A DNA stretch of 64,000 nt from Pseudovibrio japonicus (GTDB lineage Bacteria > Pseudomonadota > Alphaproteobacteria > Rhizobiales > Stappiaceae). A model generated the notes under the pieces. That model was not told where the DNA came from. It saw only the letters and a list, made by a program, of their open reading frames with translations, and searched no databases. The translations under genes and the position numbers were made by a program. Shown one piece after another: positions 9,731 to 38,843 of this stretch. The first letter of the stretch is position 1, and each line of letters opens with the position of its first letter. The stretch covers positions 124,001 through 188,000 of the forward strand of contig NZ_BMXE01000002.1 in assembly GCF_014651595.1 (NCBI RefSeq). Reading direction: 5' to 3'.

Positions 9731-10002
9731 CTCCCTTTTTCTTTTCCCAACAAATAAAAAAAAGAAGCTCTCCGATTTTTTTGAGTCTGCATTTTGAGAA
9801 AAGACTCTCCAAAACCACCGTTTGCGGGCGTTTTTTTTTGCGCTCAACATTTGTTTTTGCTGCGCAAAATCTATGATTGTTCCCTCCCCTTCGGTTCCTT
9901 GTACAAAGGTTGCTTTGTAGTTAGCTATCTCGAAGATTGTCTCCAACAATTCATTTCATCTGTTACAAATGCTGCGCTCGTCGGCGCGCCCGGAATTCTC
10001 GC
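9731..10002. other. T-rich intergenic region before the hsdM remnant
   Basis: It holds long T and A runs (TTTTTCTTTTCCC, AATAAAAAAAAG, GCGTTTTTTTTTGCGC) and more GACTCTCC words continuing from the repeat. It probably once carried the promoter of the type I restriction operon. No gene is supported. Confidence 0.4.
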
Positions 10003-10483
<481 letters not shown>

Positions 10484-10503
<20 letters not shown>

Positions 10504-13310: not shown

Positions 13311-14371
13311 GTCATCTGTACTATGTGTTTAGAATTAAGTGCCAAAAGTAAGAAAATAAAGACAGGAACCTTGTGCCTGATCCCAATTCCGGGGGTAAAG
13401 GTGGCTGGAGCGAAGATCAGAAACGACAGAATGACAATTATCAGAAGCAGCGGATTCTTTCGTGATAACCATAATTGGGCAACTGTGAAGGTTGCGCTTA
13501 AGAGAAAAAGTACAAGCGCAAATATCCCAACGCTCGCAGCAATTGGGAAAAGGTAAAGCCAAACAGAATAAGCGACCGCCTTTAGGGAAAAAGGGAAGCC
13601 CATATGTAATAGTGTCTCCGCATAGGAGGTGCCTGCATCTTGGATCGACACCCTGACTTTAGCCTCAATGGCAGATATCGTTGCTTCTTGTGAAATTAGA
13701 GCGCCAGCCTTTCCAATAATGCCATAGAGATCTTCTAGACCAATTTGTTTCCAGATCGCGATAGCCGTCGCGGAAATCCCTGTCCCCAAAAAAATAATAG
13801 GTAGTCCACGCGGTGCTGATAGTAAGTAAACAACGAACGGAGCATTACCCAGATGAGCAATTAAAGCACCAAACATGCTTATAGCTCCCGCATTATAATT
13901 TCGATTTTCCAACGCTATGATCGAAACAGCAAGGAGCAGAACATATGTCCCCTCCGCCATACCATTCCCAACTTGATAGGCGCAGTAAAGAAATAAAAGA
14001 GATACCACTGGTCTACGCCATGAAATGGCAGAAGCACGCGAAAGAAGTAAAAAAATATTCGCTATTGCGAAACCGTAGATTAACCCCCAGCCGGGACCGA
14101 AAATCGAGGCTGGTACACTCCATATTATCTCGTGTAATTTTTCGCCGCAGGGCGGAGTCGAACCAAAACATGCGTTTATTGTTTCGTGGTAGCGAGCCGC
14201 ATCACCAACGGGACCGATAAACACCCCAAACGATGCAGCCAAAGCCACTCCGGCAATAGTCAAGACCGCCAATAGTTCGAAATGCTGTAGCCGTCCGCCT
14301 GTGTGCGAGCAGCGACGGGCTAAAGCAAGAAGCGAACCAACCGCGATGGCAAAAAAACTTAGGCTTTCCAT
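13298..14371 (-). CDS. Wzy/EpsG-like polysaccharide polymerase (membrane protein)
   Basis: A 357-residue polytopic membrane protein with about ten hydrophobic segments and a large loop in the first third (DAARYHETINACFGSTPPC). This is the layout of O-antigen/exopolysaccharide polymerases of the EpsG and Wzy types. The C-terminal GIGIRHKVPVFIFLLLAL resembles the end of that family, where a conserved Arg-rich loop precedes the last helix. It overlaps the pyruvyl-transferase gene upstream and a glycosyltransferase gene downstream. With the flippase encoded three genes upstream it would complete a Wzx/Wzy-type assembly. The family is very divergent, so this call depends on topology and context. 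Confidence 0.7.
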   Translation of the reverse strand: MESLSFFAIAVGSLLALARRCSHTGGRLQHFELLAVLTIAGVALAASFGVFIGPVGDAARYHETINACFGSTPPCGEKLHEIIWSVPASIFGPGWGLIYGFAIANIFLLLSRASAISWRRPVVSLLFLYCAYQVGNGMAEGTYVLLLAVSIIALENRNYNAGAISMFGALIAHLGNAPFVVYLLSAPRGLPIIFLGTGISATAIAIWKQIGLEDLYGIIGKAGALISQEATISAIEAKVRVSIQDAGTSYAETLLHMGFPFSLKAVAYSVWLYLFPIAASVGIFALVLFLLSATFTVAQLWLSRKNPLLLIIVILSFLIFAPATFTPGIGIRHKVPVFIFLLLALNSKHIVQMTWRK

Positions 14372-15414
14372 GCATTCCTCCTAAGCCATTCGAGTGGATC
14401 AACCCTTTCCATCAGTCGCGCTTGATCAACAGGCCCATTGTCGAGCGCGGCGCGCACTGCGCTGCGAATCTGCTTTGGATCAGTGTCTTCGGTAGTAACA
14501 AAAGGCAGGCCCATCCAAAGGCAAAAATCTCGCATCTTTTCGGCGTAGACCAACGGTACCACTGGCACGCCAAGAATGGCGCATGCGCACAACACATGAA
14601 ACCTCTGGGTCACCACGAAAGGCGCTGCAACGAGAGTATCGAGGAAGGGCGCAACACCGCGGTATGGATGCAAGGTTTCGATCCTGAGAACGCGGAGCTC
14701 ATCAGTGCCGAGATCACCGCGGTCATCTGCAGACAAACCTTCAAGCGCATGACCTTCTGCCAGTAATTCGCCCACGATCACCAACTCAGCCTCCGTGTTG
14801 CGCCGGAAGTTTCGGAAGTTAATCAAACCCGGCGCACTGGGTAATGGCGGATGCGCAGCCCGCTGCTCGGCTAACTGATCGAGCTTGAGTGCGCGGCGTG
14901 CAAACTCGGAAAAGATCGGATCACAGCAGAGGACGGCATCGCGTCCAGTGAGCTCTTCGAAGGCGATGACCCCCTCAGCTTCTCGCAATGCGTAAACGCT
15001 GTTGGTCTTGCGTGCAAGGAGCCGCCATAAACGCCGGGCAAAGGGCTTCGAAAGCGGGCCGAAGCCTGTGCCACAGACCAAAATGCGCCGTCCAAACAGT
15101 CGCGACAGAGCAAAAGTAATAGCTAGATGCGCACCGCCGCTGCGAGAACTGTTATCGTTAAACTGACCGCCTCCGCCGATCACCACGAAATCAACCCCTG
15201 CTATGACACGCGCCTTCCCGACTACGTCGGTGCGGTGAACGTCGATCTCTCCAGCCTCCGCACCTGCACGTCGAATGTCTCCACCGATTGTCACCGAGCA
15301 ACCGAGCGCGATGAGCTGTTCGCGGAACAGACTCCAAAGCAGGTCGTCACCAAAATTCCCAATACCGTAAGTGGCTTCGAGGAAAACCTTTTTCACTGCC
15401 GTCTCTCCGTTCAA
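14359..15414 (-). CDS. polysaccharide pyruvyl transferase family protein
   Basis: A 351-residue protein. The N terminus has the family's EATYGIGNFGDDLLWSLF motif (near residues 13-30), and later VIGGGGQFNDNSS and GTGFGPLSK. The C-terminal half has the GT-B-like THE/THRFH signature equivalent as VVTQRFHVLCACAILGVPVV. Enzymes of this family (CsaB, WcaK, ExoV) transfer pyruvate from phosphoenolpyruvate to sugars as a ketal, adding negative charge. Some members instead act as glycosyltransferase-like proteins, so the exact reaction is inferred. It overlaps both neighbours in the operon (4 bp with the acyltransferase gene). Confidence 0.85.
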   Translation of the reverse strand: MNGETAVKKVFLEATYGIGNFGDDLLWSLFREQLIALGCSVTIGGDIRRAGAEAGEIDVHRTDVVGKARVIAGVDFVVIGGGGQFNDNSSRSGGAHLAITFALSRLFGRRILVCGTGFGPLSKPFARRLWRLLARKTNSVYALREAEGVIAFEELTGRDAVLCCDPIFSEFARRALKLDQLAEQRAAHPPLPSAPGLINFRNFRRNTEAELVIVGELLAEGHALEGLSADDRGDLGTDELRVLRIETLHPYRGVAPFLDTLVAAPFVVTQRFHVLCACAILGVPVVPLVYAEKMRDFCLWMGLPFVTTEDTDPKQIRSAVRAALDNGPVDQARLMERVDPLEWLRRNAWKA

Positions 15415-15938
15415 TCTTGCCGCCCAGCTAATAGAAATGCGCCCCGCGCGAGGCCATCGTGCTTTGCAGCGAGTTGTATCTTACTAAGCGTTTTGACGAC
15501 CTTTGCAGGGTTCCCGAGCAGGATCGACCCAGCGGGAAAGGTCCCACGCACCACCGAGCCAGCACCTACAAGGCAATGATCACCAAGCTCGGTGCCAGGC
15601 AACAAAATCACGCTGTCGCCGAGCCAACAACCTTTGCCCACAGCGACGTTTTTTTTTGAGATCGTTTCATTCGAATAAGGTATGGTTGCAGTGCCGAAGA
15701 AATCGTGGTTTGAAGTGTAGATTGTAAGGTTTGGTCCGGCGATACTACCTTCATCAATGGTAATCCCGCCGAGCGCAAAGAGGCGCGCGCTGGGACCGAT
15801 ATAGACGTGGTCACCAATCTCAAGCCGATTTAGCCAGGACCATGCATTAAGCGATACAATGCGGCTTGTCGTACTGATCTTCCCTCCCTTACGGCGGATT
15901 GCCAACCGTGGCCATCGGCCTATTAATGCTCGAATCAT
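15411..15938 (-). CDS. hexapeptide-repeat acyltransferase (WbbJ/LbetaH type)
   Basis: A 175-residue left-handed beta-helix acetyltransferase. Imperfect hexapeptide repeats run from about residue 38 (IGDHVYIGPSARLF) to 150 (LGDHCLVGAGSVVRG). They include the catalytic-loop His in YTSNHDFFG and the C-terminal LLGNPAKVVK found in sugar O-acetyltransferases. The ATG at 15938 is chosen over the longer frame to 16211, because it overlaps the flippase stop as TGATG and the extra residues lack family character. It likely O-acetylates a sugar of the repeat unit using acetyl-CoA. Confidence 0.88.
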   Translation of the reverse strand: MIRALIGRWPRLAIRRKGGKISTTSRIVSLNAWSWLNRLEIGDHVYIGPSARLFALGGITIDEGSIAGPNLTIYTSNHDFFGTATIPYSNETISKKNVAVGKGCWLGDSVILLPGTELGDHCLVGAGSVVRGTFPAGSILLGNPAKVVKTLSKIQLAAKHDGLARGAFLLAGRQD

Positions 15939-17107
15939 CACCGCATCCTTGCTTTTAGCACCAAAAGAAAAGCATTCTGAGTTAGCACACCCAAGCCGTA
16001 GACCACCAGTAGGTTTGCAGGCCCGATTGCTCCCGCCAAGGTCAATCCTGAAACCGCCATCAACTTGACCAGTACCATCAGTGCGAGCGACCCCACGATA
16101 GGGCGGATCCGGCCTACGGAATAGAACCAGTTGGCAAGCGGTCCGAAGGCGGCCGAGGCGGCGAAAATCGCAGCGGCGGCGGCAGCCAGTAACCAGATTT
16201 CGCGTGCCCAAAGCACGGGCCAGAGCAACCCGGCAGACGCGAAGCCCACTGCAAATACCGCGCTCAAAAATAAGGTTTGGATCTGGACTTTCCGGAATAT
16301 CTGACGGTATCTATCGGAAGTGGTGGAATGCGAATAAAGTTCGCGCAGGTTGTTGACTAAAATGAAGTTCGTCGCGATACCGCAGACCGACGCCAGTTGC
16401 AAGGCAACCTTGTAGCTGGCGAGCGTTTCGGGATCTGCTAGCCGGCTCATCGCAAAAATTTCGAACTGCGTCGCCAGCACCATTAACATCCCGAGCAAGA
16501 CGAAGGCCCAGGGAGACGACGGCCTGTTTGCAGGAGCGTTGCCGGAGGTTGCTGATACAACGGCGGGTATGGTGTTTTGCGCGAATCCAGCCAAGCCAAT
16601 TGCTGCGAAGATGATAATCAGCCCAGTTAATCCGAATGACCATAGCAAACCGGCATCGCTGGGTCCCGCTGCCAAAAATAGCAGAACGACGAGCACAAGT
16701 AGAACGAGCGGGCGCAAAGTAAATTCGAGTGCAACAGCCAAGCTGTTACGATGATTGGCGCGCAGCTGGGCTGCCTGTACCTTTAGAAGCAAGTGACCGA
16801 TCCCGAGAACCGGCACGACGACCAACACCCAAAGGCTCTGGCCTAACACCAGCACCAAAACAACAGAAGTCAACCAAAGCACAACGACACCTGCTATTCC
16901 GGCGCCGAAGCCGCCCGCACGCCCGCTCAGCCTCTCTCGTAAATGAAAATGTTCGGTATAAGGATTGAGTGGTGCTGTAGCGAATTGCATATAGGCGGCG
17001 AGCACCGCGTACTGAGCGGTATAGGCGGGCGGGAAACCGGCGAGATAGGCAAGTAGGACCAACGTTGACGCTGGCCCCATTACTCGACCAACTAGAGCGA
17101 CTATCAC
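15938..17107 (-). CDS. Wzx-like polysaccharide flippase
   Basis: A 389-residue integral membrane protein with about 10-12 hydrophobic helices, as in the MATE/MOP superfamily of oligosaccharide flippases. The N terminus (VGRVMGPASTLVLLAYLAGF) and the loop FEIFAMSRLADPETLASYKV, near the middle, are characteristic. It would move the undecaprenyl-linked repeat unit across the inner membrane. It overlaps the upstream glycosyltransferase gene by 4 bp and the acyltransferase gene by 1 bp. Its presence together with a Wzy-like protein points to a Wzx/Wzy route rather than an ABC or synthase route. Confidence 0.85.
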   Translation of the reverse strand: MIVALVGRVMGPASTLVLLAYLAGFPPAYTAQYAVLAAYMQFATAPLNPYTEHFHLRERLSGRAGGFGAGIAGVVVLWLTSVVLVLVLGQSLWVLVVVPVLGIGHLLLKVQAAQLRANHRNSLAVALEFTLRPLVLLVLVVLLFLAAGPSDAGLLWSFGLTGLIIIFAAIGLAGFAQNTIPAVVSATSGNAPANRPSSPWAFVLLGMLMVLATQFEIFAMSRLADPETLASYKVALQLASVCGIATNFILVNNLRELYSHSTTSDRYRQIFRKVQIQTLFLSAVFAVGFASAGLLWPVLWAREIWLLAAAAAAIFAASAAFGPLANWFYSVGRIRPIVGSLALMVLVKLMAVSGLTLAGAIGPANLLVVYGLGVLTQNAFLLVLKARMR

Positions 17108-18141
17108 AGATACATCCCCAGAATCCGGGTGACAAAAGCGTCGGCGTCGAATGTGTCTCGCAGTTCAGCGATTTCAGCAATGGAAGGCGTAGAGGTAGAC
17201 ATCACAGCCGCAATCGTCTGAGCAGCAGTTGCTGGGTTATCAGGGTCGACAAACGATACTCCGCCACCAACTGCAGCGACCTCACGGAATGGTGGGATTG
17301 GCGCGGCAAAGGCTGGCAATCCTGCTGCCAGTGCCTCAATCAAACCGATGCCCAGCCCCTCCGCCGATGAAGTAGCAAGGAAAGCGTCATAGTTTTGGTA
17401 AAGCTGCAAGACGTCATTATGGGCGACCTGTCCAAGGAAACGCAATGCAGTTCCAAGCCCGACCGTCTCTGCCTTAGCCTCCAACGCCTCACGTTCTGGG
17501 CCCTCACCCACGATATCAAGTGTCGCATCGAAACCCTCGCGTTCCCGCAGTGCAGCCAAAATGTCGATCTGGGCAGCTACACGTTTCACCGAAACTAAAC
17601 GGTTGACCGAAAGCAATCTTAACCGGTTGCCAGTCTCTCCGAAGGCGCCGTCACGTCTCAAAGGTAAGATAACCGGGTTAGTCACGACCTCGCCGCGTGC
17701 TATACCCCAAGAGGATCTACCTGCTTCAGATACGAAGACGATCTCCTTACAAGGATTCCATCGTGCACGAAACAGCCGGCGCGCCCAGGGATTAGCGCTC
17801 TCAGCAGATCCGTGGACATGGCAAATCACCTGACGCCCGGAGATGAGTGGGAATATTGGTAGGAACTTTACATAAACATTGACGTTGTAAAGGTGCACGG
17901 TAGTCGCTGCTTGAAGCATGCACCAAGCTTTGCCGACTTCATTCGGCATAACGACACATGCTCCTGCAGCCTCCATTTCACCTCTGATCTCAGGCACAAT
18001 GGCATTTCGCGTTCCAAGAAACAATATCGATGCTTGTCCGCCCGCCTCACGAACGCCCCGCAATAGGTGCAATAAAACCTGCTCTCCACCACCGTTAACG
18101 AGTTTATTGGTGAGATAGACTACGTTCATCCAATTTCTCAA
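17104..18141 (-). CDS. family 4 (GT-B) glycosyltransferase
   Basis: A 345-residue GT-B enzyme. The N-terminal half begins MNVVYLTNKLVNGGGEQVLL, the acceptor-side glycine loop. The C-terminal half contains LLSVNRLVSVKRVAAQIDIL (donor domain start) and the nucleotide-sugar motif SSAEGLGIGLIEALAAGLPA (E-x7-E). The start may be the second Met (18129), which fits the family better. Its start overlaps the end of the next glycosyltransferase gene upstream by 38 bp. Sugar specificity is not readable. Confidence 0.9.
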   Translation of the reverse strand: MRNWMNVVYLTNKLVNGGGEQVLLHLLRGVREAGGQASILFLGTRNAIVPEIRGEMEAAGACVVMPNEVGKAWCMLQAATTVHLYNVNVYVKFLPIFPLISGRQVICHVHGSAESANPWARRLFRARWNPCKEIVFVSEAGRSSWGIARGEVVTNPVILPLRRDGAFGETGNRLRLLSVNRLVSVKRVAAQIDILAALREREGFDATLDIVGEGPEREALEAKAETVGLGTALRFLGQVAHNDVLQLYQNYDAFLATSSAEGLGIGLIEALAAGLPAFAAPIPPFREVAAVGGGVSFVDPDNPATAAQTIAAVMSTSTPSIAEIAELRDTFDADAFVTRILGMYL

Positions 18142-19177
18142 CTAGTTGCTCAGCAATAGCATCCCATGAAAACGCAACCAAATGTTCTTGTCTGATTTTT
18201 GCGCAATCAAAGCCAATCATAGCTAGCTTGCCAAGCGCAGCTTCGAGAGATGCCGACGAGAGTTCTTCAAGAAAAAGCCCGTTATCGCCCTCGCGGATAC
18301 GCTCTCTAAACCCAGGGATATCGCTCGCGATAACAGGCGTGCCAACTGAGAGCGCCTGATGCAGAACACCGCTTTCACTGACTTTATCGTAGGGCAGCAC
18401 AACAGCGGCGGCGTTTGCAATCAAGTGTTCGAGATCCGCATCAGTCAGGAAGCCGTCGAAATAGCGCCCAGCGGTCGCGATCTGCTCGCTGGAAAAGCTG
18501 CTTTGGTTACGCCCCGCCACTACCAGCGTCATTCCAATTTTCTTGAAAAGAGACGCGTTCGCGATGAGGTAATCAATATTCTTATCGTCCCGCACATAAC
18601 CGGGAGCGATCACATAATCACCTAGGGTCTTTACTGCTTCAACGATATCAGCTGACGCTGGATTGCCTTGCTTCGTTGGGGCATATTCCCCATGTGGAAT
18701 TATCGCAACGCGTTCTCGTAGGTTGGCGGGTACCAACTCAAGTTCAGCCTCGGTATGCAGTACAACCATATCGAAACCGCGCCAAAGTCGCCATTTAATT
18801 GCATTATAAATGCGGTTGGGGAAATGCGTTGCAACGTTATGCGGAGTGAGTACCGTTCTCCATCCTAGGCGACTCGCGATATAGAGCAGTATTAACGTAA
18901 TTAAATTTATACCCTGATAGTGGATAATAGTGCTCTTTTTTCCGAACAACGCCCGCGCGACCGACAGTAATGTGCGCGGTGAACGGCGTCCTTTTGGCAA
19001 CTCCATCATTTCAATATTGTCGCCGAGAAGTTGCATCAATGCGGCCTGCCCTGCCACAGACAAGCGCATTCTGTCAGTAGCTGCAAGCGCATTGGCCAAA
19101 CGCGCTGTATAACGCTGCAAACCTCGACTATCAGATACACAGATCAAGCGGTAGTCGACAACATTCGTTTTAGACAC
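18104..19177 (-). CDS. family 4 (GT-B) glycosyltransferase
   Basis: A 357-residue GT-B enzyme with a GTG start after AGAGGAACGCGA. The acceptor half contains STIIHYQGINLITLILLY and TVLTPHNVATHFP. The donor half has VIAPGYVRDDKNIDYLI, then VVLPYDKVSESGVLHQALSV where the usual E-x7-E region lies, and GTPVIASDIPGFRE. It overlaps the sulfotransferase gene upstream by 34 bp. It is one of three family 4 transferases in this operon, suggesting a repeat unit of at least three or four sugars. Confidence 0.9.
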   Translation of the reverse strand: MSKTNVVDYRLICVSDSRGLQRYTARLANALAATDRMRLSVAGQAALMQLLGDNIEMMELPKGRRSPRTLLSVARALFGKKSTIIHYQGINLITLILLYIASRLGWRTVLTPHNVATHFPNRIYNAIKWRLWRGFDMVVLHTEAELELVPANLRERVAIIPHGEYAPTKQGNPASADIVEAVKTLGDYVIAPGYVRDDKNIDYLIANASLFKKIGMTLVVAGRNQSSFSSEQIATAGRYFDGFLTDADLEHLIANAAAVVLPYDKVSESGVLHQALSVGTPVIASDIPGFRERIREGDNGLFLEELSSASLEAALGKLAMIGFDCAKIRQEHLVAFSWDAIAEQLVEKLDERSLSHQ

Positions 19178-19890
19178 TCGCGTTCCTCTAAACTAATTTC
19201 GACTTTGTTGCCGCCGTAATAAATCCTGTTTTTAATTACCGACTTCAGAGTCAATGGCACAAGACGATTGAGTCTTAGCGCTATAAGCCACTGCCACAAG
19301 TAAGAGGCAATTCGGGCAAGCACGACGCTGCGAGGTGCCATTCGTTGGTTGGACTGCTGAAACCCCGCATCTTTCGCTGAAATTCCTAAACCTTTAAGAG
19401 TAGCAGCGAAATCAGACCCACTTGTAATCTGAACCGTATAGAATTGATCCACAGCGTCGCGCCACCCAGCGGAATGATCTTCGTATCGGCTCGCTTCGAC
19501 GACCTCAGGATATGCTGAAACTGCATCTATAGGATTTGAAACCCGCCCCTTAGCTTTATGGTGCAGGTAATGGGATACCGTCCTTTCCAACGGATCGCGA
19601 CGTGTGTGGATCACTTTCAGGTCGTAGCGCGTCCCTAGTTCGACTAAGGCTTCACGTGCAAAATCACTCACAAAGTAAGTAGGTTCAACAATGTATGCTT
19701 CTCCATTAGCCAAAATTTGAGATTTGATCCGCGTTTCTTCCGCCCGCATATCCCTTCGCCGTGAGAGGTTAAACATCTCTTTCTGCTTCGGCGTTTTTGT
19801 GAACGGAAGTAGATCAAAGATAGTTGTCGTTCCGGTTTTTTCCGGTCCAACGAACACAAAAACTTTTGGGAGTTCTTCCCGCATTTCCAT
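19144..19890 (-). CDS. PAPS-dependent sulfotransferase
   Basis: A 248-residue P-loop sulfotransferase. FVGPEKTGTTTIFDLLPF (near residues 12-29) is the 5'-phosphosulfate-binding loop. VIHTRRDPLERTVSHYLHH is the 3'-phosphate-binding motif, with Arg and Ser at the expected spacing. This is the bacterial carbohydrate-sulfotransferase pattern. It is the first gene of the eight-gene polysaccharide operon, and its PAPS donor would be made by the upstream CysD/CysNC. The acceptor is inferred to be the polysaccharide or its lipid-linked repeat unit. No signal peptide or membrane anchor is seen, so it should act in the cytoplasm. Confidence 0.88.
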   Translation of the reverse strand: MEMREELPKVFVFVGPEKTGTTTIFDLLPFTKTPKQKEMFNLSRRRDMRAEETRIKSQILANGEAYIVEPTYFVSDFAREALVELGTRYDLKVIHTRRDPLERTVSHYLHHKAKGRVSNPIDAVSAYPEVVEASRYEDHSAGWRDAVDQFYTVQITSGSDFAATLKGLGISAKDAGFQQSNQRMAPRSVVLARIASYLWQWLIALRLNRLVPLTLKSVIKNRIYYGGNKVEISLEERECLKRMLSTTA

Positions 19891-28862: not shown

Positions 28863-29383
28863 TGACTGATAGTTTCTGAGCCGTTCGATGCGAAGTTGGA
28901 CGGCTCAGAAAGCTGAGCAATACTCTCCTGTTTCTTTTGGCCACGCATACCAACATCTGAGTTCAATCTACTTATTCTTCTGCTACATGGATAATTGCTT
29001 GGTTGCCTGGCTTTTGCGATACCCACCTGAGCTTTTCCTCGACTTTGGCGCATTCAGCTCAACGGCCACCTAATCTACTGAAAATGGCTTCGACTTCATC
29101 TACGCAGCCCCACAATCTCGCCATGCGCATTTCTGATAATATGATGAGATTCTGCGTTGACATTCCAGAATGTCTGCGTATATTCCAGCAGCTCAAAAAA
29201 TTGCGGGATACCCGCTTTTCCGCGCTGTCCGAGGCAAGACATCGAAACCGCCTTCTGGTTTTTCCAGAGTTTGCGGTCGACTTCCCAAAAACGGGACGTT
29301 CCTAGAGCATAAAGGAAACGGTCGCCAAAGTTCGCAGGTTACTGCGACGCCAAAGGGTGCGCTAAGATAAGAAGGACATGCGC
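28863..29383 (+). other. upstream region of rplU
   Basis: About 520 bp with no supported gene. It should contain the rplU-rpmA promoter and leader. No ribosomal-protein autoregulatory structure could be assigned by eye. Confidence 0.4.
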
Positions 29384-29959
29384 ATGTTCGCAGTCATTAA
29401 AACAGGTGGCAAACAGTACACTGTTGCTGCTGACGATCTTCTGAAGATCGAAAAAGTTTCTGCCGAAGCTGGTGAGACCGTCGTATTTGACGAAGTTCTG
29501 ATGGTTGGTTCCGATGCGGATACCACTATCGGTGCACCAACTGTTGAAGGCGCTTCTGTAACTGCAGAAGTTGTTGAGCAGGGTCGTGATCGCAAGATCA
29601 TCATCTTCAAAAAGCGTCGTCGTCAGAACTCACGTCGCCGCAACGGTCACCGTCAGGCTTTCACAACCGTGAAAATCACTGACATCCTGACCGGTGGTGC
29701 GAAGCCAGCTAAAAAAGCTGCGGCTCCTAAGAAAGCTGCTGCTGCACCAGCTGCTGAAGGTTCCGACGATCTGAAAAAATTGCAGGGTCTTGGCCCAGCA
29801 ATTGAGAAAAAGCTGAATGCTGCAGGTATCTCTACCTACGCACAGATTGCAGCTCTTTCTGCTGAAGACATCGCCCGCGTTGAAGAAGAGCAAGGCATCA
29901 AAGGCCGCTTCGAACGCGATAACTGGGTTGAACAGGCTAAGGAACTGGCAGCGAAGTAA
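29384..29959 (+). CDS. rplU: 50S ribosomal protein L21 with C-terminal helical extension
   Basis: Residues 1-102 are ribosomal protein L21 ([20 protein letters not shown] through the basic [19 protein letters not shown]-binding loop and FTTVKITDI). An Ala/Lys-rich linker ([14 protein letters not shown]) then leads to about 60 residues resembling a helix-hairpin-helix fold ([20 protein letters not shown]). E. coli L21 lacks this extension; it is common in Rhizobiales. The ATG at 29384 is chosen because GAAGGA lies 7-8 bases upstream, whereas the earlier ATG at 29378 would be too close. It is followed 46 bp later by rpmA, the standard pair of the large subunit. Confidence 0.96.
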
Positions 29960-30005: not shown

Positions 30006-30275
30006 ATGGCTCATAAAAAAGCTGGCGGTTCATCCCGCAACGGTCGCGACTCAGCTGGTCGTCGCCTTGGTATCAAAAAGTTCGGCGGTGAAGCTGTAAT
30101 TCCTGGCAACATTATTGCACGTCAGCGTGGCACTAAGTGGCATCCTGGCGCAGGCGTTGGCATGGGTAAAGATCACACCATTTTTGCGACCGTTGAAGGC
30201 AAAGTTGCATTCGAAGAGAAACGCAACGGCCGAACATTTATCAACGTGATGCCGGTGGCGCTAGCCGCCGAGTAA
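30006..30275 (+). CDS. rpmA: 50S ribosomal protein L27
   Basis: An 89-residue L27, the usual length. It begins [20 protein letters not shown], the N-terminal tail that reaches the peptidyl-transferase centre, with no leader peptide as found in Firmicutes. [20 protein letters not shown] follows. AACGAGGAG lies 6-10 bases before the start. It is co-transcribed with rplU and ends before a strong terminator. Confidence 0.98.
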
Positions 30276-30436: not shown

Positions 30437-31042
30437 ATGGTAGTTGAATACGAAGAGATCCCAGAAGAAAGCAGTTGCTTTGCGGCCGGGTCGCCGCAGG
30501 ACACCGCGCGTCTCGTCATCGACCGAGCGCGCAAGGATGATGTGGCCGACATCCTGTTTTTGGCCAACAACCGTCGGATCGCTGAGAAGCTGACGAACAT
30601 GCCGCATCCCTTTACGCGTGAAGACGCTAAAGCGCTGGTGAAACGGTGTGAAGTTCAGTTCCCTAATCAGGCGACGTTCGCGATCCGCATGATGAACACT
30701 GGCCGCATTATTGGCGCTATCGGGTTCAATCCGCTTACTGAGGACTTTGGTGCAGTGCATCTGGGTTACTGGGTGGGCGAGCCATTCTGGAACCAGGGAT
30801 ATGCGACAGAAGCTGTTCAGTCTGTTATTGAATTCGCGTTCTCCAACGGCGTTAAGGAGCTCTCCGCTTCTTGCCGTGTGAGCAACCCTGCCTCGCACCG
30901 TGTTCTGACGAAGTGCGGCTTCAAGCAGGACGGAACGACAAAGCTGCATTCTCTCGGCGCAAAGGCCGTGGTGGATGCGACACGCTTTACACTAACCCGC
31001 GCCCAATGGATCGCAAATATGCGATGGGGTTACGCTGGTTAA
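30437..31042 (+). CDS. GNAT acetyltransferase, RimJ/RimL type (array member 1)
   Basis: A 201-residue GNAT protein. RARKDDVADILFLANNRRI opens the fold, and the acetyl-CoA loop lies in GYWVGEPFWNQGYATEA (motif A, Q-x-G-x-A form). ASCRVSNPASHRVLTKCGF is motif B. The start at 30437 has GGAG nine bases upstream; the longer frame to 30371 would overlap the terminator. One such gene between rpmA and obgE is common in related bacteria, so this may be the ancestral member; it is also the most different from the others. The substrate is unknown. Candidates are protein N termini, antibiotics or amino acids. Confidence 0.88.
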   Translation: MVVEYEEIPEESSCFAAGSPQDTARLVIDRARKDDVADILFLANNRRIAEKLTNMPHPFTREDAKALVKRCEVQFPNQATFAIRMMNTGRIIGAIGFNPLTEDFGAVHLGYWVGEPFWNQGYATEAVQSVIEFAFSNGVKELSASCRVSNPASHRVLTKCGFKQDGTTKLHSLGAKAVVDATRFTLTRAQWIANMRWGYAG

Positions 31043-31272
31043 GTGATGCCAGATGAGCAGGTTGCAATTATTGCGACCTGCATTTGGCAGCGTGATTGTT
31101 GTTTGGCTGTATCTGCCTGTCATCAACCACAGAAACCAGCGATCGCGTATGTGATCCTAATGCATTCTTCCTGTCTGCATTTGGGCATCGGGGCGTGCTG
31201 CGTTTCTCCCTCACTTATCCATTTCAACTAGCAACTAGAGAACTATGCGTTTGATTTACAAGGTCTTTTATA

Positions 31273-31863
31273 ATGTTGACTACAACTATAGATACCCAAA
31301 GTCTGCGACTGCGCCCATTCCAATCTAACGATCTTGCCCGGTTTTGGGAGATCGGGCATTCCAGCTACGAAGTTGCACGCTGGCTCACCGGCTTGACGTG
31401 GCCTCCAGTAATGACGGAAGCCAAAGCCTTTATTGAACAAGCTAGCGCGGCAAATCCGAAAACGGACTCCTTTCCGTTTGCAATCGACCATAACGGCCAA
31501 TTGATTGGCGGTGTCGAAGTTCAAAAACCCGGTGATCTCAATGAGTTCCCGGAGCTACCAACCATCAGCTACTGGCTGAGCGAAGCTGCTCAGGGTCATG
31601 GCTACATGATTGAAGCATGTGTTGCTGCGCTGCATTGGGGCTTTGCGCGCGCCGCATGTGACTCGTTCGCCGCTCGTGTATTTGCGACGAACTATTCGTC
31701 TCAAAAACTTCTGAAGAAGCTAGGCTTTGAGGCTGCTGGCGTTTGCCTTCGGTACTCGAAACCTCTGCAACAAGACGTTGAGAATATCATCATGCATCTG
31801 CCGCGGGATCGGTTTGAAGCATTGCACGGTGATGCCGATATAATGATGGGAGGTGCTGTCTAA
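31273..31863 (+). CDS. GNAT acetyltransferase, RimJ/RimL type (array member 2)
   Basis: A 196-residue GNAT protein starting with TIDTQSLRLRPFQSNDLARF. Motif A is YWLSEAAQGHGYMIEACVAA, with the QGHGY acetyl-CoA loop, and motif B is ATNYSSQKLLKKLGFEAAGV. The stop overlaps the next start as TAATG. Its last third is almost identical in DNA to that of member 3, while the first two thirds are clearly diverged. It is the first gene of the tightly packed part of the array. Confidence 0.9.
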   Translation: MLTTTIDTQSLRLRPFQSNDLARFWEIGHSSYEVARWLTGLTWPPVMTEAKAFIEQASAANPKTDSFPFAIDHNGQLIGGVEVQKPGDLNEFPELPTISYWLSEAAQGHGYMIEACVAALHWGFARAACDSFAARVFATNYSSQKLLKKLGFEAAGVCLRYSKPLQQDVENIIMHLPRDRFEALHGDADIMMGGAV

Positions 31864-32453
31864 TGTTTCCTATTGTCATATCAACTAAACGCTTAAAGCT
31901 TCGCCCCTCTCAAGAGAGCGATTTTGACCGTGCATGGCCCAACTTTGCTCAGAATTTCGAAATTGTTCGTTGGCTTACAGACATGCCGTGGCCACCCAAC
32001 AAAGAAGCGACTTATGCATCATTCGTATCTGCTTTATCCATCAACCCTGAAGAAGGGCCATACCCGTTTGCGATTGAATATGATGGTCAACTGATTGGGT
32101 GCGTTGAGATCCAAAAGCGAGGCGATCTCGATGAGTTTCCTGATGTGCCATCCATCGGATACTGGATGATTGAGGATGCTCAGGGACACGGTTTCATGTT
32201 GGAGGCATGTGTCGCCGCCCTACATTGGGGCTTTGCGAAAGAAACTTGCTATGCCTTCGCCACACGGGTCATGCAAGACAACCACGCCTCTTTGAACCTA
32301 TTGAAAAAACTAGGCTTTGAGGCTGCTGGCGTTTGCCTTCGGTACTCGAAACCTCTGCAACAAGACGTAGTGAACATCATCATGCATCTGCCGCGGGATC
32401 GGTTTGAGGCACTACATGGTGATGCGGACATTAAAATGGGAGCAGCCTTATGA
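31863..32453 (+). CDS. GNAT acetyltransferase, RimJ/RimL type (array member 3)
   Basis: A 196-residue GNAT protein, closest sibling of member 2 (same length, shared FPFAI/YPFAI and C-terminal RYSKPLQQDV blocks). Motif A is GYWMIEDAQGHGFMLEACVA and motif B is QDNHASLNLLKKLGFEAAGV. It is coupled to member 2 by TAATG and to member 4 by ATGA. Sequence similarity points to tandem duplication followed by divergence, with the 3' ends later homogenised. Confidence 0.9.
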   Translation: MFPIVISTKRLKLRPSQESDFDRAWPNFAQNFEIVRWLTDMPWPPNKEATYASFVSALSINPEEGPYPFAIEYDGQLIGCVEIQKRGDLDEFPDVPSIGYWMIEDAQGHGFMLEACVAALHWGFAKETCYAFATRVMQDNHASLNLLKKLGFEAAGVCLRYSKPLQQDVVNIIMHLPRDRFEALHGDADIKMGAAL

Positions 32454-33016
32454 CGACTTTTCCTCGCTTGAGAACAGCCAGCCTGACACTGCGGGAGTGG
32501 AAAGAAACGGATGCGCTTCGCGTTCAGAAAATCTTGAACAATCAAAATGTTACACGCATGTTGTCCGGCTCTCCGTATCCCTACACCCTCGCACATGCTG
32601 AGGTCTTTCTGCAAAACCGTGTACCCGATGATCTTGGTCGGGCCATACATTGGGCTATTGAACTCCAGGGCGAGGTGGTTGGCGGCATTGGAGCTCGTCC
32701 GCTCCATGAAACACCCATTATGGGATGGTGGCTTAGCGAAGACCATTGGCGAAAAGGCATTATGTATGAAGCCGCTAGGGAAGCGCTGAGCTACCTACTG
32801 CTTGAGCGCGAGCTACCAAAAGTATTCGCAGATGCCTTTAGTGATAACACTGGCTCTTTGAGGCTGGTCCGTAAACTTGGCTTTGTCCATACTGGGAAGA
32901 ATGAGGGCAGCAGTCGGGCACGCCCTGACGGCAATTACCCAACAGAAGAGTTCCTCATATCCCCTCTTGATTTTATCGAAGCCCAGCAGGCCAGAGAGCA
33001 GGAGTTGGCCCAATGA
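32450..33016 (+). CDS. GNAT acetyltransferase, RimJ/RimL type (array member 4)
   Basis: A 188-residue GNAT protein with the family start PRLRTASLTLREWKETDALR. Motif A is GWWLSEDHWRKGIMYEAARE and motif B is SDNTGSLRLVRKLGFVHTGK. It overlaps member 3 and member 5 by ATGA, implying coupled translation. It keeps the acetyl-CoA loop (W-R-K-G), so it seems functional. Confidence 0.9.
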   Translation: MTTFPRLRTASLTLREWKETDALRVQKILNNQNVTRMLSGSPYPYTLAHAEVFLQNRVPDDLGRAIHWAIELQGEVVGGIGARPLHETPIMGWWLSEDHWRKGIMYEAAREALSYLLLERELPKVFADAFSDNTGSLRLVRKLGFVHTGKNEGSSRARPDGNYPTEEFLISPLDFIEAQQAREQELAQ

Positions 33017-33573
33017 TCTTTCCGGAATTACAAACCAACCGGTTGATTTTAAGAGCAATTCAGCCAGACGACTATACTCGGCTTAGGTTCCTGTTCTCCG
33101 ACTTTGATGTGGCACGGATGACCGCCAGTTTTCCGCATCCAATCACCGACGACTGGGCTAGGGAGTTCGTTACTCGCAGTCATTCCAATGACCTGAAAAC
33201 GGATGTGGTTTGGGCGATTGATAATGGAACCGGGTTTATCGGGTCTATTGGAGCACACGGGATTGGTGAATCTGCTTCACTTGGTTACGCGCTCGGCAAG
33301 TACTATTGGCGCCGGGGTTACATGACCGAGGCGATCGGAGCCGTTGTAAATTATCTGAATACAGAGCGTTGCGTTGAAAACGTCGATGCTTGCGTTTTTT
33401 TGGATAATTTTGCGTCGTTACGTGTTCTTTCGAAGAATGGCTTCGTTCCAACTTCTGTTGGCACCCACGCCTGTGCTTCGAGAGGCGCCGATGATCTCGA
33501 CGTGCAAAACTTCGAACTCAAACTGGCTCAGCCCGTAGAGCAACCACAACTTGCAGTCGCGGGGATAAGATAG
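33013..33573 (+). CDS. GNAT acetyltransferase, RimJ/RimL type (array member 5)
   Basis: A 186-residue GNAT protein beginning PELQTNRLILRAIQPDDYTR. Motif A is GYALGKYYWRRGYMTEAIGA and motif B is LDNFASLRVLSKNGFVPTSV. It overlaps member 4 by ATGA and is one base from member 6. No frame damage is seen. Confidence 0.9.
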   Translation: MIFPELQTNRLILRAIQPDDYTRLRFLFSDFDVARMTASFPHPITDDWAREFVTRSHSNDLKTDVVWAIDNGTGFIGSIGAHGIGESASLGYALGKYYWRRGYMTEAIGAVVNYLNTERCVENVDACVFLDNFASLRVLSKNGFVPTSVGTHACASRGADDLDVQNFELKLAQPVEQPQLAVAGIR

Positions 33574-33574
33574 G

Positions 33575-34132
33575 ATGACTTTTCCCGAGTTAAAAACAGA
33601 CCGTCTGCGATTGCGTATGATCGAACATGGTGATCTGGATCGGCTCGTACAGCTGGCAAACTCTTATGAGGTGGCGGGCATGCTTTCTGGTATGCCCTAC
33701 CCATTCACCGAAGAGTACGGTCAGTTCTATATCAATCGCGGTCGGAACAATGATCCAGACAAGGTGGTGTTGTGGGCGGTTGATGATGGTAGCGGTCTGA
33801 TCGGCTGTATCTGGGCGCGCTTTGAAGATGACCAAGGCTGGACCGGATACTGGCTGGGTGAGGCTTACTGGGGACGCGGTTATATGACTGAGGCCCTTCG
33901 GACAGTGCTGCGTTTTGGGTTTGAAAAGCGGTCTATCGTCAGTTTTGAAGCTGGTGTCTTTAGGGACAATCCTGCTTCCGCCCGATTGCTCGATAAAATG
34001 GGCTTTAGCGAAGTTGGTGAAGAAACAATCCCCTCCAACGGACGGGGTGGTACGATGGTTCCTCATGTTCGGCTTGCATTGCCCAAAGCCGAGTTTGTAG
34101 ACCTTGCCAAAGCAGAAGGTTGCCCGCCATGA
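33575..34132 (+). CDS. GNAT acetyltransferase, RimJ/RimL type (array member 6)
   Basis: A 185-residue GNAT protein starting FPELKTDRLRLRMIEHGDLD. Motif A is GYWLGEAYWGRGYMTEALRT and motif B is RDNPASARLLDKMGFSEVGE. It overlaps member 7 by ATGA. The shared MLSGMPYPFT near residue 35 recurs in several members and marks the common substrate-side loop. Confidence 0.9.
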   Translation: MTFPELKTDRLRLRMIEHGDLDRLVQLANSYEVAGMLSGMPYPFTEEYGQFYINRGRNNDPDKVVLWAVDDGSGLIGCIWARFEDDQGWTGYWLGEAYWGRGYMTEALRTVLRFGFEKRSIVSFEAGVFRDNPASARLLDKMGFSEVGEETIPSNGRGGTMVPHVRLALPKAEFVDLAKAEGCPP

Positions 34133-34689
34133 CGATCCAAATGACCTTTCCCGTTTTGCGCAGTGAGCGGCTTGTACTGAGGGAGATGCGGGACGGGGAC
34201 CTTGAAAAACTCTGTGCCTATTTGGGGGACTTTGAGGTCTCCAAATCACTAAGCACTCAACCGTTCCCGTTTTCAGAAACGGACGGGCGGGCATACATCA
34301 AGCAGGCCCTTGAGAATGACACAGCCGAGAATGTGACGTGGACAATCGAGCTTGATGGCCAGCTCTGCGGTACTTTCAAAGTCAAAGACCTGCAAGGGGC
34401 TGTTTATATCGGGTACTGGCTTGGGCAAGAGCACTGGGGCAGTGGCCTAATGAGCGAAGCTTTGAGAGCGGTTCTTTTTTACCTCTTTGAAGACCGGCAG
34501 ATATCTGTGGTGCATGGTGGAGTGTTTAAGGAGAATCCGGCCTCTTTGAATGTATTGACCAAGCTTGGCTTCACGGTCACCGGCGAAGGCACACGCGTTT
34601 GCCGTGCGCGAGACAATATTCAACTGGAGGAGTTTCAGCTTCAGTTGACCCGCGCTGACTTTCTTCGGCTGAACCGCCAAGACAATTGA
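34129..34689 (+). CDS. GNAT acetyltransferase, RimJ/RimL type (array member 7)
   Basis: A 186-residue GNAT protein. The ATG at 34129 overlaps the upstream stop as ATGA and has AGAAGG eight bases before it; a TTG at 34120 is less likely. It starts FPVLRSERLVLREMRDGDLE. Motif A is GYWLGQEHWGSGLMSEALRA and motif B is KENPASLNVLTKLGFTVTGE. It is the last member of the six-gene overlapping run. Confidence 0.9.
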   Translation: MTIQMTFPVLRSERLVLREMRDGDLEKLCAYLGDFEVSKSLSTQPFPFSETDGRAYIKQALENDTAENVTWTIELDGQLCGTFKVKDLQGAVYIGYWLGQEHWGSGLMSEALRAVLFYLFEDRQISVVHGGVFKENPASLNVLTKLGFTVTGEGTRVCRARDNIQLEEFQLQLTRADFLRLNRQDN

Positions 34690-34704
34690 TTAAGAGTATT
34701 CAAG

Positions 34705-35250
34705 ATGTTTCCTGAATTGAAAACCAAAAGTCTAACTCTGCGCCAGTTCAAGCACACGGATCTGGAACCGCTATGCTCGCACATCAATAATTTCGCGGTC
34801 AGTAAAATGCTTGCCGAAGTTCCCCACCCCTACACCAAAGAGGACGGGGCATGGTGGATTGACTTTTGCCAGAAGACGCCTCTTTCCGAAAAGATTGCGT
34901 GGGTGATTGAAACGCCCGCCGGTTTCTCGGGCGCGATCACACTGATGAAGCTCAATAGTGACAAACCAATACTGGGGTACTGGCTTGCGGAGCATCTGTG
35001 GGGCAAGGGCTACGTGAGTGAGGCGGCGGAGGCTGTGGTCAGCTATGGCTTCAAAACGCTTGGCCTTCCAGTGATTTATTCATCAGCCCTTGAGGAGAAT
35101 ACCGCCAGCTTGCGCATTCTTGGCAAGCTCGGTTTTCGAAAGCCCGTCAAAGGCTTTGCGACGCCACGGTCCCGCGGCGGTGAGAGTCTTGCAGATATCT
35201 CTGTAAGCTTGACGCAGGAGCAATGGGCGACCCGGCTTGCGGAGGCTTGA
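34705..35250 (+). CDS. GNAT acetyltransferase, RimJ/RimL type (array member 8)
   Basis: A 181-residue GNAT protein, 15 bp after member 7. It starts MFPELKTKSLTLRQFKHTDL. Motif A is GYWLAEHLWGKGYVSEAAEA and motif B is EENTASLRILGKLGFRKPVK. It groups with members 9 and 10 by its length, the shared DGAWW/DGEWW motif near residue 50 and the C-terminal ending (TQEQWATRLAEA). Confidence 0.9.
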   Translation: MFPELKTKSLTLRQFKHTDLEPLCSHINNFAVSKMLAEVPHPYTKEDGAWWIDFCQKTPLSEKIAWVIETPAGFSGAITLMKLNSDKPILGYWLAEHLWGKGYVSEAAEAVVSYGFKTLGLPVIYSSALEENTASLRILGKLGFRKPVKGFATPRSRGGESLADISVSLTQEQWATRLAEA

Positions 35251-35337
35251 CCGCAGGTCTTTCGGAGGATCTATTATTTTCCGGAGTGTTTGTGATCTGA
35301 GGCAAGGCACTCCAAAACCAATGGAATTGGACTAACA

Positions 35338-35886
35338 ATGTTTCCTAAGCTCACTACAAATCGTCTCGTGCTGCGCGAGTTTCAGCAGGATGATCTGGAA
35401 CCAATCTGCACTCACATCAACAACTATGACGTGAGTAAAATGCTGACCGTGGTTCCCTACCCTTACTCCAAAGCAGATGGCGAATGGTGGCTAAACCACA
35501 TTTTTGAAACGCCGCTAAGTGAAGCGACCAACTGGGCGATTGAATCTGAAGGTGTCTTCGCAGGCGCCATTGGCATCCGTATCCCGGAAGATGGGCACCC
35601 ACGCATTGGATATTGGCTGGGAGAGCCGTTCTGGGGCAAAGGTTATATGAGTGAGGCGGCAGAAGCGGTGGTCAATTACTGCTTCGAGACACTGGGGGCC
35701 ACCAAGGTGACGTCTGGCGCATTTGAGGAAAATGACGGTTCGCTAAATGTGCTGGCGAAAAACGGGTTCCAGACAGTGGGCTCCCGGCCAGAGAAAAGCC
35801 GCGCTCGCAAGGAGCAAGATGTCACTTTGATTGAAGTGGAGCTGACCCGCGACCTGTGGGAAGCCATGCGCGCAGTGGCTGTTTGA
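35338..35886 (+). CDS. GNAT acetyltransferase, RimJ/RimL type (array member 9)
   Basis: A 182-residue GNAT protein. It starts MFPKLTTNRLVLREFQQDDL. Motif A is GYWLGEPFWGKGYMSEAAEA and motif B is EENDGSLNVLAKNGFQTVGS. It is the last member before a shared terminator and the opposing cold-shock gene. It is close to member 8 in the whole N-terminal half (LEPICTHINNYDVSKML against LEPLCSHINNFAVSKML). Confidence 0.9.
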   Translation: MFPKLTTNRLVLREFQQDDLEPICTHINNYDVSKMLTVVPYPYSKADGEWWLNHIFETPLSEATNWAIESEGVFAGAIGIRIPEDGHPRIGYWLGEPFWGKGYMSEAAEAVVNYCFETLGATKVTSGAFEENDGSLNVLAKNGFQTVGSRPEKSRARKEQDVTLIEVELTRDLWEAMRAVAV

Positions 35887-35900
35887 GAATTTTGGACAAA

Positions 35901-35928
35901 AAAAAGAGCGCATCGCTGCGCTCTTTTT
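35901..35928. terminator. bidirectional terminator between GNAT 9 and cold-shock gene
   Basis: A 12-bp stem, AAAAAGAGCGCA with TGCGCTCTTTTT, around loop TCGC. The A and T runs in the stem let it serve both converging genes. Confidence 0.9.
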
Positions 35929-35945
35929 CACTGAAACAGCTCGAA

Positions 35946-36152
35946 TTAAACGGTTTCGAGGTTTACAGCGCTCTGACGGCCATCACGACCAGCTTCCAGT
36001 TCGTAAGTTACTTCCTGGCCATCAGCCAGAGTAGACAGACCGGAGCGCTCTACTGCAGAGATGTGAACAAATACGTCTTTGCTTCCATCTTCAGGTGCAA
36101 TAAAACCGAAACCTTTAGTGCTGTTAAACCATTTCACGGTGCCTTTAGCCAT
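35946..36152 (-). CDS. CspA-family cold-shock protein
   Basis: A 68-residue single cold-shock domain. [20 protein letters not shown] holds RNP1 (KGFGFI) and [13 protein letters not shown] holds RNP2 (VFVHI). The protein binds single-stranded RNA/DNA and acts as an RNA chaperone. It lies opposite to the GNAT genes, between array members 9 and 10. About 190 bp of untranslated DNA upstream may form the long leader usual for cold-shock mRNAs. Confidence 0.96.
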
Positions 36153-37024
36153 CGTGATATCTCCTAGTTAGTGTGCCGCTGCAACATGCAGATAGCTGTG
36201 GGTTGCGTCAAAGCGAAATCGAATGCTCTGACGCCTAAAAAGGAGACAGGGTGTCGATAGTCTTAACGTAAGGACGGAATTCCACATTATCGCGCATAAG
36301 TAAAGGCGCAGCATCCTATTAGAGTGCTGTAGAACGCTTTTTTTTTATTTCCCTGTGGTTTTCCTGAGTCAATTACTAACTTATTCCGTCATCTTTGCAC
36401 AAAACCTGCCAAATTTACGGAAGATGCTATTGCCTATAGTGATTTTCAATTGTGCGGGAATTCGGGCAAAAGCCGCAGTTAAATAATCCTCACTGCGTGA
36501 AAAAATTTCCAAGAATAGGCTCGAAGCGCTTGCAATCAGGTGCGGACCGAGATAGTGACCGCCTCCAAGCTTTTAAAGTTCCTTTCGGATTTTGAAACCT
36601 CCAAGATGCTGTGGCCTGCTGTCCCATCTTCTTTTTTGAAGAGAGATGCAGGTTTCTGTCACCTTCAATCCTCGGTCGCTCTGTGTTTTTCGGGAGATTG
36701 ATGATGGGTCTTGCTCCTCTGTTCTGGCTGGCGCGATCGTTTGTGCGCACCCGCGACTTTCAGCAGATGGCAGGATGGGGTTTTTGAGCAAGGTTGCGGC
36801 AACAGCCTTTTTGCTCCCTCGACCATCGGTGATTCTGGCGCCGCTTGTGCGGCGGCTCAGAGCATTGTGAGTTTCAAGAGATCCCGGAACAAGAAAGCGT
36901 GGTTTAGATAGCACCCAGCGCGTTGCAGACATTAGGACTGGCGGGCTTGACGCTATCTTCGTGTTTAAGAAAAGAGCGCTGGCAACATCGGGCAAGCGTT
37001 CCAAGAAGATAAGAAGAGTTTGTC
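36153..37024. other. intergenic region between csp and GNAT 10
   Basis: About 870 bp. The first 190 bp or so probably hold the cold-shock promoter and leader. The rest (36350-37020) has open frames on both strands, but none resembles a GNAT or any known domain. A relic of further array members was looked for and not seen. The promoter for member 10 must lie here. Confidence 0.4.
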
Positions 37025-37570
37025 ATGTTCCCGGAGCTGCATTCCGAGCGCTTGATCCTACGTGATTTCCGCGAAACTGATTTCGATATTCATAACGAGT
37101 CGCTAAATGATTTCGATGTGAGCAAGATGCTGACCGTGGTGCCGCATCCTTACACCAAGGATGATGGTGCGTGGTGGTTTGACCATTGCCGTACGACAGC
37201 GCACAGCGAAGAAATCAACTGGGTGATCGACAATGGTGAAGGGCTGGTCGGCGTGATCGGCATTCGCAATATTTCGACAACCCCGCATCTGGGCTACTGG
37301 CTGGCGAAAACTCATTGGGGTAAAGGCTATGCCAGTGAAGCGACCAATCTGGTTTGCGATTTTGTGTTCAACCAGCTGAATGCAGTTGCGATGAACACCG
37401 GTCTGTTCACCATCAACCCGTCGTCCTTAAACGTGCTTCAGAAGAACGGTTTTGTGGTAACGGGCGAGACCAAAGAGAAGAACCGTGCGCGCGGTGACAT
37501 CGAGATGGATTACACAACGGTGACACTGACCCGTGACCGTTGGGCTTCGATGCAAGCGCTGGCGGCCTGA
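37025..37570 (+). CDS. GNAT acetyltransferase, RimJ/RimL type (array member 10)
   Basis: A 181-residue GNAT protein. It starts MFPELHSERLILRDFRETDF. Motif A is GYWLAKTHWGKGYASEATNL and motif B is TINPSSLNVLQKNGFVVTGE. It belongs with members 8 and 9 (VSKMLTVVPHPYTKDDGAWW block). It lies directly upstream of obgE, where many alphaproteobacteria carry a single GNAT gene. Confidence 0.9.
   Translation: MFPELHSERLILRDFRETDFDIHNESLNDFDVSKMLTVVPHPYTKDDGAWWFDHCRTTAHSEEINWVIDNGEGLVGVIGIRNISTTPHLGYWLAKTHWGKGYASEATNLVCDFVFNQLNAVAMNTGLFTINPSSLNVLQKNGFVVTGETKEKNRARGDIEMDYTTVTLTRDRWASMQALAA

Positions 37571-37745: not shown

Positions 37746-38842
<1,097 letters not shown>

Positions 38843-38843
<1 letters not shown>

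Follow-up and report, generated by a model that had tools for sequence, protein, structure and literature searches.

Why does a bacterium keep ten acetyltransferase genes in a row between two housekeeping genes, and what might their products do? The question is raised by a stretch of 64,000 nucleotides from Pseudovibrio japonicus (positions 124,001 to 188,000 of contig NZ_BMXE01000002.1, assembly GCF_014651595.1), here called the window; the genus is placed in the Stappiaceae, order Hyphomicrobiales. The interval between rpmA (30006..30275, +), which encodes ribosomal protein bL27, and obgE (37797..38843, +) holds ten intact genes of the GNAT superfamily with a PF13302 domain, all on the + strand. 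Both border genes were recognized as open reading frames (ORFs), rpmA serving as the reference for synteny and obgE giving a single match in each of 41 genomes; their names, like proB, mnmE, rho and others used below, are presumptive, that of rpmA following from its sequence and place. Our best explanation of the locus is a birth-and-death expansion, specific to Pseudovibrio, of N-acetyltransferases with the RimL fold that have been kept as different enzymes. The evolutionary part of this explanation, which builds on direct observation of gene content, tree, synteny, purifying selection, a conserved catalytic Asn/Ser pair and a second array elsewhere in the genome, is very likely correct; with function included, the explanation is tentative and stands a little below an even chance.

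Gene content and phylogeny of the rpmA–obgE array

The array begins with gene 1 (30437..31042; PF13302 score 106.8 bits), assigned to type A by the tree described below. Type B comprises gene 2 (31273..31863; 88.4 bits) and gene 3 (31863..32453; 87.4 bits), and type C comprises gene 4 (32450..33016; 89.5 bits), gene 5 (33013..33573; 97.2 bits), gene 6 (33575..34132; 86.7 bits), gene 7 (34129..34689; 94.8 bits, scored from a start at 34132), gene 8 (34705..35250; 101.5 bits), gene 9 (35338..35886; 107.5 bits) and gene 10 (37025..37570; 94.5 bits), which adjoins obgE. All scores, 86.7-107.5 bits, are to be set beside a Pfam gathering score of 25.4 bits, and each gene has an ATG start and no internal stop. 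From gene 1 to gene 10 the successive spacings are +230, -1, -4, -4, +1, -4, +15, +87 and +1138 bases. Genes 2-7 are thus the six tightly packed members that the initial annotation, made from the letters of the window, had picked out among its ten: genes 2 and 3 overlap by 1 base, genes 4, 5 and 7 each overlap their predecessor by 4 bases and gene 6 starts after a one-base gap, while 15 bases separate genes 7 and 8 and 87 bases genes 8 and 9. All ten copies are intact, and an array of pseudogenes is rejected.

All ten products have the acetyl-CoA loop (W/Q-x-x-G-x-x-x-E-A) and an N-x-x-S motif, and the catalytic Asn/Ser pair is invariant. No member lacks the loop, so the loss of acetyl-CoA binding by most of them, which the initial annotation had named as one outcome that would undo its proposal, was not seen. 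The acetyl-CoA pyrophosphate loop and the fold together place the products in the GNAT superfamily: the best structural matches of an AlphaFold model of gene 9 (pLDDT 96.7) are GNAT structures, although so many families tie that the alignment does not decide function. The model of gene 1 is weak (pLDDT 64.2) and was used only to confirm the fold.

To place the array among its relatives, the stretch upstream of obgE was compared in 40 of the 41 genomes, G027 being left out for a contig end near obgE. Twenty-five belong to the Stappiaceae (16 Pseudovibrio, the window genome included, and nine others) and 15 to other families. The intact GNAT genes between rpmA and obgE in Pseudovibrio number 10 (window), 11, 11, 11, 10, 10, 9, 9, 7, at least 7 (contig end), 6, 6, 4, 4, 4 and 3, so that the window array is not the longest, three genomes having 11; G003, G005, G006 and G011 each have one additional broken copy. 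The nine other Stappiaceae have 2-4 intact copies, and the 15 genomes of other families 0-4, rpmA not being found near obgE in two of these and a contig end cutting one. A further 72 named loci outside Pseudovibrio have 1-4; these were retrieved by a type A search and so contain one copy or more by selection. More than four copies were seen in no examined genome outside Pseudovibrio. An ancient, conserved ten-gene locus is rejected on these counts, and the expectation that relatives would have one or two copies here was too narrow; the restriction to a narrow lineage, by contrast, stands, the same array in distant orders not having been seen. Four copies occur outside the genus at L119, L126, L128, L129 and L131 (Roseibium/Labrenzia) and at L066 (G029), which suggests small separate expansions. 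Named genomes searched with an alignment built from gene 1 and its relatives gave eight best loci that were all from Pseudovibrio (59-95% identity), followed by Stappia, Roseibium/Labrenzia, Pannonibacter and other genera.

The tree was built on 208 complete rows, 17 partial matches among 225 GNAT matches being omitted. It is a quick tree in which 66 of 202 inner branches are drawn open as weak forks, and we claim no exact order for the duplications. Tree and synteny together define three ancestral types. Type A is single copy in all 25 family genomes. Type B is present in 21 of the 25 and doubled only in the window genome, where gene 3 is the extra copy. Type C, in the eight family genomes of other genera that have it, is single in seven and double in G016. 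All 91 type C rows from Pseudovibrio fall into a single clade (SH-aLRT 99), which places the type C expansion within the Pseudovibrio lineage. G011 or G013 contribute copies to several of the type C groups, which puts the start of the expansion before the long-array clade, whose ten genomes fall together (100/100) in a species tree made from six other genes. Copies that form one clade and lie side by side are the signature of a lineage-specific tandem expansion, and the stepwise tandem duplication first proposed for the locus is borne out by tree and synteny. Of the subgroups then proposed, genes 8, 9 and 10 do group together with their orthologues (support 96) and genes 2 and 3 both belong to type B, but an exclusive sister relationship of gene 3 to gene 2 is not demonstrated.

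Purifying selection acts on the orthologues, and the paralogues have diverged strongly. The ratio of nonsynonymous to synonymous divergence (NG86 dN/dS) between orthologues is 0.037-0.224 where computable, compared with about 0.03-0.08 for obgE and proB; the ratios are approximate, several synonymous distances (dS) being above 1 or not computable. Gene 10 is the most constrained copy (0.037-0.062). The window paralogues are only 20-49% identical, except genes 2 and 3 at 61%, and fixed differences separate the orthologue groups. Sliding identity between genes 2 and 3 is 35-62% in the first 240 bases and 88-97% around bases 450-550. The gradient recurs among type B orthologues and is compatible with gene conversion at the 3' end or, alternatively, with rapid evolution of the N-terminal half. 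The initial annotation had divergent N-terminal regions throughout the array; a faster-evolving N-terminal half is clear for type B only. Gene 1 has a dS of 0.22-0.30 against 0.54-0.79 for obgE and proB in the same three species pairs, which hints at constraint at the DNA level or at recent exchange.

A second array between rho and mnmE

The window genome has 33 PF13302 matches, eight of which are consecutive. This run shares a contig with the first array, about 371 kb away from it, and lies between rho and a thioesterase-like gene on one side and yyaL-mnmE-mnmG on the other. This second array, observed here and absent from the initial annotation, has eight members, of which seven are intact and the third in order is interrupted by two stops. 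The broken copy (L031, 6700-7340) has one TAG and one TGA and is otherwise complete, a recent loss. In the nine other long-array genomes intact copies at the same site number four in each of G010, G006, G004, G002 and G015, two in each of G003, G007 and G005, and at least one in G009, where a contig end limits the count. The six other Pseudovibrio genomes have one copy each; five other Stappiaceae were examined, four with one copy and one with none. Two or more intact copies are thus found, among the genomes examined, only in the long-array clade. The second-array genes form one clade distinct from the rpmA–obgE genes (SH-aLRT 100), and both loci have expanded in the same clade of species, a single joint pattern on one branch.

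PA3944 of Pseudomonas aeruginosa is a polymyxin/colistin acetyltransferase (6EDD, 7KPS), and the second-array copies are its clear homologues: the one copy tested matches it with E 6.4e-47, and the seven are 39-47% identical to it and 51-79% identical to one another. Residues S148 and N145 of PA3944 are kept in 44 of 44 rows of this type and E102 in 43 of 44, so that homology and the three residues agree in placing the array in the PA3944 family; its products are candidates for polymyxin acetylation. The window genes fall outside that family. They share the fold, the Asn and the Ser with PA3944, but are 18-21% identical to it and none of the ten has an equivalent of Glu102, the residues at that position being H, T, S, I, S, W, Y, I, R and H. 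We know of no array in P. aeruginosa itself, no search for one having been made.

The growth of the family is visible in whole-genome totals. Genomes of the long-array clade have 19-36 PF13302 matches, the other six Pseudovibrio genomes 11-16 and other Stappiaceae 11-17. G011, equal in genome size to the window genome, has 16 to its 33. The TetR family, taken as a control, has 32 matches in the window genome and 28 in G011. A first look at 199 genomes of the order gave 35 PF13302 candidates here and at most 29 elsewhere, figures that are not comparable as true counts, the best 19 candidates having been scored per genome.

Candidate functions and rival explanations

The closest characterized relatives do not name a function for the window genes. 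The RimL equivalog model (NF007539) has a cut-off of 184 bits and the best window score is 37.5 bits (gene 1); for RimJ (NF008072) the cut-off is 190 bits and the best score 33.3 bits (gene 7); for the bleomycin-family acetyltransferases BlmB/TlmB it is 625 bits, with best scores of 31.2 bits in the window and 33.5 bits in the second array, and the Streptomyces enzyme is longer, at 297 residues. No window copy attains any curated NCBIfam cut-off. The first description of the genes as 'RimJ/RimL-type' therefore holds for the PF13302 domain and the fold, which RimL and RimJ share, but not for membership of either family. MccE, the microcin C self-immunity acetyltransferase, is the best PDB sequence match of gene 1 (3r95, E 9.6e-10) and has the fold and the catalytic Ser in common with the window genes; identity in structure alignments is 17-18%. 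RimL presumably has the catalytic pair S141/E160. The same spacing is seen in MccE (S553/E572; PMC4964394), and judged by this spacing, rather than by superposition of structures, the general-base Glu 19 residues after the catalytic Ser is absent from all ten window genes, which carry S, S, S, S, C, S, C, P, S and N there.

The course of events that we favour is as follows. The rpmA–obgE stretch of the Stappiaceae usually holds up to three types, A, B and C; type C was copied in tandem several times in Pseudovibrio, for the most part ahead of speciation in the long-array clade, and the window genome gained a second type B in addition. The copies then diverged and have been kept as different enzymes by purifying selection, while a separate PA3944-type gene multiplied between rho and mnmE in the long-array clade. 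Each enzyme would bind acetyl-CoA in the splayed beta4-beta5 site and acetylate an amine, probably with the participation of the conserved Ser and Asn, as in PA3944. Each copy may acetylate its own amine-bearing acceptor, and the acceptors may be mainly small molecules or peptides, including antimicrobials of marine host-associated communities. Type A, and perhaps gene 10, would keep an older housekeeping role; for type A a housekeeping target is the more likely because it is kept beside rpmA and obgE across many genera. Many diverged copies have been retained, the PA3944-type genes have expanded alongside them and some copies are broken. Together these features suggest a turnover that follows changes of acceptor, the acceptors being, at a best guess, antimicrobials or other xenobiotic amines.

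Several observations weigh against this functional reading. The joint growth of the two loci is confined to one clade and is not independent replication, and the larger genomes of that clade gain other families too, TetR matches ranging from 18 to 61 across the genus and rising to 61 in those genomes (at least these numbers in six genomes, where the best 150 candidates were scored). RimL, RimJ and MccE fit the gene 9 model as well as antibiotic-modifying enzymes do. A search in codon windows for positive selection gave a highest dN/dS bin of 0.25, hence no signal of an arms race. The substrate diversification proposed at the outset is plausible in that orthologues are conserved while paralogues differ, but when the docking residues of PA3944 (PMC8072286) were mapped onto the copies no excess variation was found at acceptor sites: in the second array these positions are not more variable than others (P about 0.11), in the window 12 motif-anchored acceptor sites vary less than the other positions (P 0.004) and five high-contact sites do not stand out (P 0.49). 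The substrates proposed for the copies are putative. Overall, the original interpretation is supported in part.

Two serious rivals have to be weighed. In the first, which is unlikely but retains appreciable weight, the copies would be protein N-terminal (or lysine) acetyltransferases diversified for different ribosomal or other proteins. This would explain the ribosomal neighbourhood, and is in keeping with the retention of type A between rpmA and obgE in all 25 family genomes and the 72 named loci of other genera, with modelled folds equal to those of RimL and RimJ, and with a gene 10 as constrained as obgE and proB. The unattained RimL and RimJ cut-offs argue the other way, as do the lack of Glu at Ser+19, a copy number of 3-11 within one genus, unlike that of ribosomal protein genes, and a second array of PA3944 type in a different neighbourhood.

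In the second, somewhat less likely still, birth and death would be mostly neutral, with tandem duplicates of overlapping function persisting for a while and no selection for variety. Broken copies in the second array of the window genome and in the rpmA–obgE arrays of four other genomes fit such turnover, as do the variation of copy number between close species and the negative acceptor-site tests. Most window copies, however, are matched throughout the long-array clade by orthologues on which purifying selection acts, the divergence of the paralogues implies that they have been kept for a long time, and PF13302 doubled relative to the equal-sized G011 when TetR did not.

Gene dosage, in which the multiple copies would serve to make more of a single enzyme, would suit the tight operon-like packing and the ribosomal neighbourhood, but is rejected as very improbable on the divergence of most paralogues and the fixed differences between orthologue groups. 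A series of GNAT toxins from toxin–antitoxin pairs, for which the GNAT fold alone speaks, is likewise hardly credible and is rejected: known toxins of this kind have partner genes, genes 2-7 leave no room for one between them (partners were not otherwise searched for) and PADLOC has no match for any of the ten.

A bolder extension of the favoured explanation, which we regard as doubtful, is that the two unlinked, co-expanding banks of RimL-fold acetyltransferases form an evolving chemical resistance repertoire. The PA3944-type genes between rho and mnmE would act against polycationic lipopeptides, the type C genes against other amine-bearing antibiotics, for example peptide-nucleotide or glycopeptide ones, and new specificities would arise by tandem duplication and partial exchange between neighbours. 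Should the copies indeed inactivate antimicrobials, resistance by acetylation would be present in symbiont genomes and be overlooked by resistance-gene models, because no window copy reaches a curated NCBIfam cut-off. Through the second array the expansion is tied to PA3944, among the enzymes encountered in this analysis the only polymyxin-acetylating GNAT that is well studied. In any case, a two-locus expansion whose window copies are so diverged and yet kept offers a ready-made panel for the study of substrate change in the RimL fold, and type A is an uncharacterized neighbour of ribosomal genes across many genera of the order.

The initial statement that no system of this design is known was too strong, as lineage-specific GNAT expansions have been described. 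Deinococcus likewise gained many paralogous GNATs in one lineage (COG0454/COG1670: 22 and 33 proteins against 7 in Thermus), a role in stress or resistance being proposed (PMC1978522). Pseudovibrio differs in its tandem copies in a ribosomal neighbourhood and in two unlinked loci growing jointly; arrays are not described in the available part of PMC1978522. A pair of tandem GNAT arrays in housekeeping neighbourhoods, growing in one clade, thus seems to be new. The array was not found described in the open-licence literature searched, which is weak evidence that it is unpublished. The accessible portions of three Pseudovibrio papers (PMC5959193, PMC3806328, PMC11796379) do not mention it, and the main text of PMC5959193 contains neither 'acetyltransferase' nor 'GNAT'.

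Transcription and neighbouring genes

Genes 2-7, perhaps 2-8, are inferred to be co-transcribed as one operon because they overlap, and gene 10 may form a separate transcription unit with obgE. Scans of the window lend this arrangement no help, giving two promoter-like sites against 6.0 expected and six terminator-like sites against 10.1 expected, nothing above chance. The ten genes, rplU (29378..29959; PF00829, 138.8 bits), rpmA and obgE share the + strand. Between genes 9 and 10 the array is interrupted on the opposite strand by csp (35946..36152, -), a second addition to the initial annotation, which encodes a 68-residue cold-shock domain protein (PF00313, 88.4 bits). An Rfam match to the cspA thermoregulator over 35898-36320 (56 bits, E 3.2e-12) lies below the gathering score of 78; the only other Rfam match, to an animal microRNA model in proB, is weak and taken as chance. 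In G015 (locus L041) TetR-, OsmC- and CAAX-protease-like ORFs, the last two named by eye, lie between csp and the gene 9 copy and have no counterpart in the window.

The bL21 protein encoded by rplU has a C-terminal extension that matches a helix-hairpin-helix domain (HHH_5, 29.9 bits). Further upstream, a block of polysaccharide genes (12198-19890, -) contains glycosyltransferase-like ORFs and a polysaccharide pyruvyl transferase (PF04230), with a weak, below-cut-off sulfotransferase match at 19147-19890. Near the start of the window lies an intact-looking phage-type integrase gene (6351-7643), and after it come isolated fragments of type I restriction genes (9937-11497), an HsdM N-terminal domain and a piece of HsdR domain 3, apparently the remnant of a broken system.

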